Translations under genes and position numbers: made by a program
Shown: one piece after another, positions 18,061 through 20,182 of the stretch
Position numbering within the stretch: position 1 is the stretch's first letter
How the letters are laid out: the number at the start of each line of letters is the position of its first letter
Assembly (NCBI RefSeq): GCF_007995245.1
Contig: NZ_VCBA01000002.1
Location: 434,001-498,000 of the forward strand
Length of the DNA: 64,000 nucleotides
DNA from: Tateyamaria sp. syn59
GTDB taxonomy: Bacteria > Pseudomonadota > Alphaproteobacteria > Rhodobacterales > Rhodobacteraceae
Direction: 5' to 3'
The notes under the pieces: model-generated
The model's database searches: none
What the model saw: only the letters and a program-made list of their open reading frames with translations
Told to the model about the DNA's origin: nothing

Positions 18061-18534
18061 CTACAGTTTTGACGAGATGATGCCGGTGTTGAAGCCGCCC
18101 ATGCGCAGCTCGCCAAAGAGGCGCTGGTATTCGATCTTGGGGCAGCGGTTCTGGATCACTGTCAATCCGGCGGCGCGCGCCTTGGCGGCGGCATCTGCGT
18201 GGGTGACGCCGATTTGCATCCATATCGTCTTGAGGGTCGGCAACTGGTCCATCGCCGCGTCCACGATGTCTGGCACCGCGTCAGAGCGCCGGAATATATC
18301 GACCATATCCACCGGCGCGTCGATGGCATCAAAGCTGGCCACCACGGTCTGACCGAACAGCATCTGGCCCGCATAGACCGGGTTCACAGGGATCACGGTG
18401 TATCCCTTCAGGGACAGATAGCGCGCCACGTAATAGCTGGGCCGCACCGGGTTGGTTGAAACGCCCACGACGGAGACCGCCTTGGCGCCCGTCAGCACCG
18501 ATTTCAGATGCGCGTCGGTATAGGTTTCTTTCAT
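18061..18534 (-). CDS. CoA-binding (YccU-like) protein
   Basis: The 157-residue product is a single CoA-binding Rossmann domain: KAVSVVGVSTNPVRPSYYVARYL is the nucleotide loop, and KGYTVIPVNPVYAGQMLFGQ, VDMVDIFRRSDAVPDIVDAA and IWMQIGVTHADAAAKARAAGL follow the succinyl-CoA-synthetase alpha-subunit pattern. The ATG at 18534 has AGGGGGA upstream; a longer frame exists but lacks support. The nearest upstream signal is a terminator ending 40 bases away, so its own promoter must be very close or transcription must read through. Confidence 0.9.
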   Translation of the reverse strand: MKETYTDAHLKSVLTGAKAVSVVGVSTNPVRPSYYVARYLSLKGYTVIPVNPVYAGQMLFGQTVVASFDAIDAPVDMVDIFRRSDAVPDIVDAAMDQLPTLKTIWMQIGVTHADAAAKARAAGLTVIQNRCPKIEYQRLFGELRMGGFNTGIISSKL

Positions 18535-18573
18535 GCGGTCCCCCCTGCCCAGCCTAGGGCCCGCGCATGGTCC

Positions 18574-18608
18574 CAAAAAAACGCCCCGATCGCAAAGCGA
18601 AAGGGGCG
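18574..18608 (-). terminator. Rho-independent terminator of the rlmB-zinc-ribbon unit
   Basis: On the minus strand CGCCCC..TCGC-ttt-GCGA..GGGGCG forms a two-part stem followed by at least seven T residues. It lies about 160 bases after the zinc-ribbon stop and 40 bases before the CoA-binding gene start. Confidence 0.85.
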
Positions 18609-18767
18609 CGAAGGTGCGGAACGAGGGACAGTGATTAACCAGCAGGGGTTCCAAACCTGCTGTTCAACACTTCAGATAAGATGTTCTGAAGGATGTGAAA
18701 GACCCTCTCTCAAATCTGTGAACGAAACCTTAAATACGGTTTTCGCGCAGTTCCTTGCGAGTTTCCG

Positions 18768-19058
18768 TCAGTCAAAGATATCCTCAATGATATCAAAGGC
18801 GTCTTCGAACATGTCCTTCCAGCGCGATTTGCGTTTCTTGTATTTTTTCTTGGTGGGTTTCGGCCGTGGGGGCTGGCGGACTGTCGATGGACGGACCAGT
18901 TCGCGGTCGCCCGACTTCTTCTTGGGCAGCATTTTCAGGTCGTGCAGCGGCGCACCACAGCTGGAACAGGCCAGTTCGTGGCGGTTGCGCCCCGAAAGAA
19001 CGAGGGCGGCGCGGGTGCCGCAATAGCAGCAAGTGGCGATTTTCGTCGGGTGGGCGAT
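18768..19058 (-). CDS. Small zinc-ribbon protein, apparent ATC start
   Basis: The frame encodes about 96 residues. It has two CxxC knuckles, ATCCYCGTRAALVL and ELACSSCGAPLHDLKMLP, then a basic Lys/Arg-rich linker, and ends with an acidic helix FEDAFDIIEDIFD before TGA at 18770-18768. No ATG, GTG or TTG lies between the upstream stop and the first knuckle; the first possible start is ATC at 19058, five bases after a perfect AGGAGG. That upstream stop is the TAG of rlmB in the same frame, so the alternatives are an ATC start, stop-codon readthrough, or a sequence error (ATG to ATC). The protein type is familiar in Rhodobacteraceae; its role is unknown. Confidence 0.8.
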   Translation of the reverse strand: MAHPTKIATCCYCGTRAALVLSGRNRHELACSSCGAPLHDLKMLPKKKSGDRELVRPSTVRQPPRPKPTKKKYKKRKSRWKDMFEDAFDIIEDIFD

Positions 19059-19067
19059 GGTCGCCTC

Positions 19068-19844
19068 CTATGCGTGATCCTTGGACGCATATAATGCGAT
19101 TGCCGCGGCATTTGAGACGTTGAGTGACCCAAACCCGCCTGCCGCGTCGATTTTGACCAGTGCGTCGCAAGTCTCTCGCGTTTTCTGGCGCAGGCCGGGC
19201 CCTTCGGCACCAAGGACAAGGGCGACGGGACGGTCCTTTTGCCCCTGCAAAGCAGTTTCGATGGTCTGCTCTGCATCGCCATCAAGGCCCAGAACGGTGT
19301 AGCCCATGCCCTGCAGCGAAACGATGGCGTCCGACAGGTTGCGCACCCGCACATAGGGTTGCCGTTCCAGCGCGCCGGAGGCGGTTTTTGCCAAAGCGCC
19401 GGTCTCCGGCGCCGAATGGTGGCGCGTGCCGATGACGGCAGACGCGCCCAGCACCTCCGCCGAACGCAGGATGGCGCCTACATTGTGCGGGTCGGTCACG
19501 CGGTCGAGCAGGATCAGACGTGGCGCCGCATCTCCTATGGCCACATCCTCAAGGGTGCCCCAATCGAGCGGCTTGACCTCAAGTGCGGCCCCCTGGTGGA
19601 CGGAGCCCGGATCAATCGGAGGCCTGAATTTGCGCGGGTCAATGACATCAGCAGTGATGCCTGCCGTCGCGATGGCATCCGCCAGCTTGTTCTGGGCATT
19701 CAGGGTCACCATCAGCCGCAGTTTTTCGCGCCGCGGGTTCAGCAGCGCATCGCGCACGGCATGCAGACCAAAGAGCCAAACAGTGGCTGCGGCATCGGCC
19801 TTTTTCGCCTGCTCTTTCTCGACCACCCATTTGGGTTTTTTCAT
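19068..19844 (-). CDS. rlmB: 23S rRNA 2'-O-methyltransferase RlmB (TrmH/SpoU family)
   Basis: The enzyme methylates the ribose of a conserved guanosine in 23S rRNA using SAM. The 258-residue protein has a basic N-terminus (KKPKWVVEKEQAKKADAA), the L30e-like substrate domain (WLFGLHAVRDALLNPRR), and the SPOUT knot motifs: LILLDRVTDPHNVGAILRSAEVLGA, LVLGAEGPGL and SLNVSNAAAIALY. The start at 19844 has AAGGTGA upstream. The stop TAG is directly followed by the zinc-ribbon frame. tRNA-Tyr lies just upstream on the other strand. Confidence 0.93.
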   Translation of the reverse strand: MKKPKWVVEKEQAKKADAAATVWLFGLHAVRDALLNPRREKLRLMVTLNAQNKLADAIATAGITADVIDPRKFRPPIDPGSVHQGAALEVKPLDWGTLEDVAIGDAAPRLILLDRVTDPHNVGAILRSAEVLGASAVIGTRHHSAPETGALAKTASGALERQPYVRVRNLSDAIVSLQGMGYTVLGLDGDAEQTIETALQGQKDRPVALVLGAEGPGLRQKTRETCDALVKIDAAGGFGSLNVSNAAAIALYASKDHA

Positions 19845-19950
19845 CTCGTCACCTTTGGCATTGGCCGGGGATTTTCTACCTTGACCCCCGATATGCGTCC
19901 CGGTAATCACGCGCTCACGCCAACCGGGCTTCACGCTCTAATGGCGCAGT

Positions 19951-20034
19951 GGGCGACAGGCCGCAAGGTGTGGCAGGGGACTGTAACTCCCTCGCGGAGA
20001 CGCACGCCTGGTTCGATTCCAGGGTCGCCCACCA
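19951..20034 (+). tRNA. tRNA-Tyr (GTA)
   Basis: Acceptor GGGCGAC pairs with GTCGCCC. The anticodon loop CTGTAAC carries GTA. There is a long class II variable arm (CGCGGAGACGCACG region), T arm CCTGG-TTCGATT-CCAGG, discriminator A and encoded CCA. The 243 bases that follow to 20277 hold no gene I can support, only the regulatory sequence of the next operon. Confidence 0.95.
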
Positions 20035-20182
20035 TCTTGTCCAAGCATAGTTGCCGCTCAAGTGGTCGGGCCCAAGTAGCTTGAAGACAGAGCCTTCTCG
20101 CTGTGCCGCATCTCCTCAGTCGACGGATCAAGACCCCGGCAATGCGCGCATGAAAGCCGCGGGGCCGATCACAATTTCCAAC

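Follow-up and report, generated by a model that had tools for sequence, protein, structure and literature searches.

Comparison across relatives strongly supports the view that, in the alphaproteobacterial genus Tateyamaria, translation of a small zinc-ribbon gene situated directly downstream of rlmB starts at AUC, and that in Ruegeria it starts at AUU. Start codons of this kind (ATC, ATT or ATA) are collectively called AUH here. The gene was found in a window of 64,000 nucleotides from Tateyamaria sp. syn59 (contig NZ_VCBA01000002.1, positions 434,001 to 498,000), and initiation at ATC had been put forward in the title of a first-pass annotation. AUH is present in 19 Tateyamaria loci, in 30 Ruegeria loci and in 16 more genera, in a column that elsewhere holds ATG, GTG or TTG. 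The explanation that we consider highly probable is genuine AUC/AUU initiation that IF3 disfavours and for which a strong Shine-Dalgarno (SD) sequence compensates in part, which would place the gene in the same class as infC, pcnB and sigR.

The locus

The features of the locus are listed in Table 1. On the minus strand, rlmB ends with GAT CAC GCA TAG, after which its frame continues with GAG GCG ACC ATC GCC CAC CCG ACG AAA ATC GCC ACT TGC TGC TAT TGC. The earlier description of this junction is accurate to the base: the zinc-ribbon frame is that of rlmB, set apart from it by TAG and three codons, and the AGGAGG overlaps the rlmB stop at the spacing claimed. In the window, ATG, GTG and TTG are absent from the TAG to the first cysteine codon. 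The forecast that gene finders would truncate the gene is fair, since the list of open reading frames with standard starts yields merely a fragment of 54 aa that begins at an internal ATG (18932).

Table 1. Features of the rlmB–zinc-ribbon locus (window coordinates)
Feature	Position	Strand	Remarks
rlmB (23S rRNA G2251 2'-O-methyltransferase)	19068..19844	-	ATG 19844-19842, stop TAG 19070-19068
Shine-Dalgarno AGGAGG	19064..19069	-	overlaps rlmB stop, 5 bases 5' of ATC
Putative start codon ATC (fMet)	19056..19058	-	based on comparison across relatives
Zinc-ribbon protein gene	18768..19058	-	96 codons + TGA (18770-18768)
First CxxC knuckle, C10-C13 (start codon = residue 1)	19020..19031	-	both Cys invariant in 78/78 aligned proteins
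Second CxxC knuckle, C31-C34	18957..18968	-	both Cys invariant in 78/78 aligned proteins
C-terminal acidic helix, residues 79-94, behind a Lys-rich stretch	18777..18824	-	consensus EEAFDxIEDIFD
Terminator-like hairpin + T run, 3' of the zinc-ribbon gene	18582..18599	-	consensus scan only

The product of rlmB was identified by a TIGR00186 score of 184.3 bits (cut-off 160.15) and a Pfam SpoU_methylase score of 125 bits, the frame scored having begun one codon ahead of the ATG. Just upstream of rlmB, on the plus strand and so opposite to it, is a tRNA-Tyr gene (19951-20034). The consensus scan for terminator-like hairpins returned 6 sites in the region, with 2.4 expected. A scan of 18450-20100 found no sigma-70-like promoter, a result that says little for Tateyamaria.

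Homologues of the zinc-ribbon gene occur in 19/20 Tateyamaria and 53/54 Ruegeria genomes. Within the Rhodobacteraceae, they were detected in 173 of 394 genomes using a profile and in 172 using one sequence. A class-wide search found the gene in 5/289 genomes, four of them Rhodobacteraceae; the fifth, from another family of the class (locus L327 of G521), carries the sole distant homologue outside the Rhodobacteraceae in that search. It has an in-frame ATG upstream, and the rlmB C-terminal motif was looked for upstream of it and not found. One further locus (L174, G025:C1:118500-119600) contains two tandem homologues, both with an ATG start.

Conservation of the start codon

As the first-pass annotation had suggested, the codon was compared in close relatives. 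In Tateyamaria the start column reads ATC in 18 loci and ATA in one; in Ruegeria, where 30 of the 53 loci found were examined, it reads ATT in 29 and ATC in one. Thus AUH is kept in 19/19 and 30/30 loci, a conservation beyond what chance would give. The codon that precedes the start varies in Tateyamaria (ACC, GAC, GCC, ACA, ATC, ACG and GTC). From the ATC onward, the first two bases of each codon are nearly fixed and the third bases are variable, a pattern that is absent ahead of the ATC, with the exception of the SD, where bases -11 to -7 are nearly invariant.

The start codon is fixed in Ruegeria, but variation at the first bases of codons 2 and 3 means that codon periodicity is clean only from codon 4 there. 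The third base of the Ruegeria start is selected, because the start is ATT in 29/30 loci whereas a nearby isoleucine codon is ATT in 9/30 (p 6e-8). In addition, the conserved start of rlmB, used as a control, is ATG in 49/49 of these Tateyamaria and Ruegeria loci, and so the method does not create odd starts by itself.

Start codons across the family

A census of start codons was compiled from 154 genera, one genome each, out of the 171 genera matched by the single-sequence search. It excludes 18 of the 172 matching genomes (17 from other genera plus G204, of Tateyamaria) as well as the weak matches G040, G067 and G104. Loci were placed by script in 150 cases and by eye in four (three ATG, one GTG). 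A start was called standard when an automatic procedure found ATG, GTG or TTG 5-11 codons ahead of the first cysteine, and a few such calls may be chance codons. The totals are ATG 121, TTG 9, GTG 7, ATT 9 and ATC 8, that is, 137 standard genera versus 17 with ATT or ATC. As most genera that have the gene use a standard start, AUH is not essential to it. Of the 150 script-placed loci, 132 (116 standard and 16 non-standard) have the C-terminal motif of rlmB directly upstream.

The AUH codon occupies position -9 from the first cysteine in 16 of the 17 ATT/ATC genera, and this is also the commonest position of standard starts (70/133). The odd genus is G194, in which the ATC is at another position behind a weak SD, and its AUH start is doubtful. 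Exchange at a single column is seen in the Shimia group, where loci with like flanks have ATT (L083), TTG (L072) or GTG (L088, L098 and L115); in the genus of G300, a second species likewise has ATT. Residue 2 is small (P, A, S, G or T) in 17/17 AUH genera but also in 117/133 standard genera, and is therefore merely consistent with an AUH start. On a tree of 143 rows, built from the RlmB end and the ribbon after 19 loci with too little RlmB sequence had been omitted, start type needs at least 13 changes versus 25.9 in shuffles; just one of the 140 inner branches is starred, and no more than a single change is forced by the starred branches.

Shine-Dalgarno sequence and start context

Pairing of the SD is stronger in AUH genera, with a median of -10.2 kcal/mol versus -7.2 kcal/mol in standard genera (p 0.001), and GGAG is present in 13/17 AUH genera versus 42/118 ATG genera (p 0.003). 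Two other possible features of the context gave null results: a C at -1 is not significantly associated with AUH starts (11/17 AUH versus 50/118 ATG genera, p 0.12), and local RNA structure at the start does not go beyond chance (z -0.14).

infC and the proposed role of IF3

IF3 discriminates against start codons that do not end in G (PMC4611024, PMC5472188, accessible sections), and infC is autocontrolled in this way. Among 30 genomes from 24 genera, picked to cover both kinds of ribbon start, infC begins with ATA (22 genomes) or ATC (8), and the four Tateyamaria genomes in this set have ATC. The context is SD-spacer-ATA/ATC-GCY-CGC, directly before a conserved ARRPHNAPP (loci L240-L269). Because infC starts at AUH in 30/30, the zinc-ribbon gene is a second AUH-start gene in these genomes, and the first-pass annotation was apt in calling such starts very rare except in infC-type cases. 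For R. pomeroyi, a proteogenomic study reports 486 measured N-termini as ATG (94%), GTG (5%) and TTG (1%), so AUH starts are uncommon in this clade (PMC3305630).

Three features that mark an IF3-discriminated start are found at this gene: a non-NTG codon for which there is no alternative (in the window and in 39/64 AUH loci), its conservation as a start, and a well-placed strong SD, which in the window is AGGAGG with a 5-base spacing. The identity of the start codon as AUC/AUU rests on comparative evidence. Conservation of AUC/AUU at the start, as in infC, suggests that IF3 restrains the zinc-ribbon gene, and we infer that this repression has a physiological use.

The mechanism would be as follows. 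The gene is probably co-transcribed with rlmB, and AGGAGG would position the 30S subunit on its start. Initiator tRNA would pair with the A and U of AUC but not with the C, and methionine would be inserted. Initiation complexes at AUC/AUU would be destabilised by IF3, and for this reason output is expected to be low and to increase as IF3 runs short in relation to 30S subunits. This would be the same logic as that of infC autocontrol, in a family in which infC also starts at AUA/AUC.

Alternative explanations

It is possible, though we think it unlikely, that AUC is the start but only holds output low and constant, as has been argued for E. coli pcnB, and that changes in IF3 are physiologically irrelevant. 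AUH is found in a minority of genera and is swapped with ATG, GTG and TTG, as would be expected of a tuned rate, and even then AUC would still be IF3-sensitive in principle. However, AUH together with a strong SD has been kept throughout the two genera examined, and an AUG with a weaker SD would lower output just as easily.

Somewhat less likely again is that ribosomes ending rlmB re-initiate at the AUC, with this coupling rendering a poor codon usable. The overlap of the SD with the rlmB stop is in keeping with coupling, as is the location of that stop 9-11 bases ahead of the start in 18/19 Tateyamaria. However, the distance is alike in the two kinds of genera (medians of 11.5 for AUH and 11 for standard, p 0.83), and in two AUH genera the rlmB stop is 39 and 63 bases away. 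Coupling to rlmB may help but does not explain the codon, and it is compatible with IF3-disfavoured AUC/AUU initiation as an added feature.

A canonical start farther upstream, within rlmB in another frame, is very improbable. Canonical in-frame codons are available in 25 of 64 AUH loci, mostly at codon -20 or beyond and inside rlmB. The usual one is an ATG at codon -20, which lies within the codons for LYA of rlmB (CTA TAT GCx), so that its presence is owed to rlmB. In the species of those 25 loci, a longer product is possible. The remaining 39 loci, the window among them, have no in-frame ATG, GTG or TTG from the upstream stop to the first cysteine, and an upstream start was therefore rejected as a general solution.

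Readthrough of the TAG to give an RlmB-zinc-ribbon fusion, an option raised in the first-pass annotation, is less probable still. The two genes do share a frame in 12/19 Tateyamaria, including the window, but rlmB ends out of frame in the other 7 and in 19/30 Ruegeria (26/49 together) with AUH retained, and it does so in 7 of the 16 AUH census loci in which the rlmB end was located. Moreover, the codons from the stop to the ATC vary in sense and the ATC is preceded by a strong SD. Because rlmB terminates in another frame in so many AUH loci, a conserved fusion is excluded, and readthrough is not a conserved mechanism. Finally, a single-base sequencing error, likewise proposed earlier, or a pseudogene can be dismissed, as the codon is conserved across the Tateyamaria and Ruegeria loci, independent assemblies of 19 species agree, and coding constraint downstream of the ATC is strong.

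The zinc-ribbon protein

An alignment of 78 proteins shows the four invariant cysteines (C10, C13, C31 and C34), a Lys-rich linker and the acidic C-terminal helix. The AlphaFold model has modest confidence (pLDDT 75.1, pTM 0.35); it places strands in the ribbon and a helix over residues 79-94. Two CxxC knuckles are also characteristic of known zinc-ribbon families, including Pfam Zn_Ribbon_TF, Lar and LysW and the archaeal aIF2-beta and RpoP ribbons; unlike these, the window protein falls below every curated Pfam and NCBIfam cut-off. When all 78 members are considered, the top match in Pfam is to Zn_Ribbon_TF (E 9.8e-6). Of the 244 Foldseek matches listed up to E 10, none reached E 0.001, and a profile search against the PDB gave weak, uninformative matches, the best at E 0.021.

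The possibility that the product is IF3 itself was rejected: the NCBIfam scan gave no TIGR00168 match, and the genome has a separate infC at G000:C1:337772-338263, away from the zinc-ribbon locus. The position after rlmB and the basic linker suggest an association with RNA or the ribosome, and our guess is that the protein is nucleic-acid- or ribosome-associated. The gene may also have been seen at the protein level. SPO_PG011 of R. pomeroyi is a conserved 97-codon ORF that had been unannotated and for which three peptides gave 61% coverage (PMC3305630, Table 1); going by that table, it could be the zinc-ribbon gene, as the size fits.

Relation to known systems

The genes with IF3-discriminated starts that have been studied experimentally are few, those named in the accessible sections of PMC5472188 and PMC9410913 being infC, E. 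coli pcnB and Streptomyces sigR. The start of infC is AUU in E. coli and ATC in Streptomyces (PMC5472188, same sections). Like infC, the zinc-ribbon gene has a non-NTG, AUH start behind an SD that is conserved across species. Unlike infC, it adjoins rlmB and its start swaps with ATG, GTG and TTG between genera; as its product is not IF3, autocontrol by that product is impossible.

The AUU start of E. coli pcnB is given in PMC9410913, citing Binns and Masters. The zinc-ribbon gene resembles pcnB in being a second chromosomal gene, besides infC, with an AUH-type start in one genome, but the proteins are unrelated and AUH has been followed here across two genera and beyond. Streptomyces sigR has a GTC start whose repression by IF3 was demonstrated experimentally (PMC5472188). 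From the account in that source, the likeness to sigR extends to a rare start codon, a strong conserved SD, genus-wide conservation and misannotation by gene finders. The differences are that the codon here is AUC/AUU and not GTC, that SigR is a sigma factor, and that IF3 control was established by experiment for sigR whereas for the zinc-ribbon gene we infer it.

Implications

A full-text literature search, with most subscription papers outside its reach, found no paper naming an AUH-start zinc-ribbon gene after rlmB in Rhodobacteraceae. The gene adds an AUH-start case with comparative support from two genera and an occurrence in 16 or 17 genera, all of one family. It is an example of the small conserved genes that are cut short or overlooked when start-codon rules are applied, and annotation pipelines limited to NTG would also misplace the start of infC in this family, which is ATA or ATC.

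A more tentative proposal, and one that we regard as possible rather than probable, gives IF3 control in the Rhodobacteraceae a second arm, namely the zinc-ribbon protein as a factor associated with the ribosome or with RNA. Here, the AUC/AUU start would read the ratio of IF3 to 30S subunits, and lineages would have exchanged AUH for a standard start, and the reverse, at this one codon, with control repeatedly gained or lost. The relatives that start with ATG, GTG or TTG are natural controls, and thus the use of IF3 repression beyond infC becomes testable in marine bacteria that are harmless.
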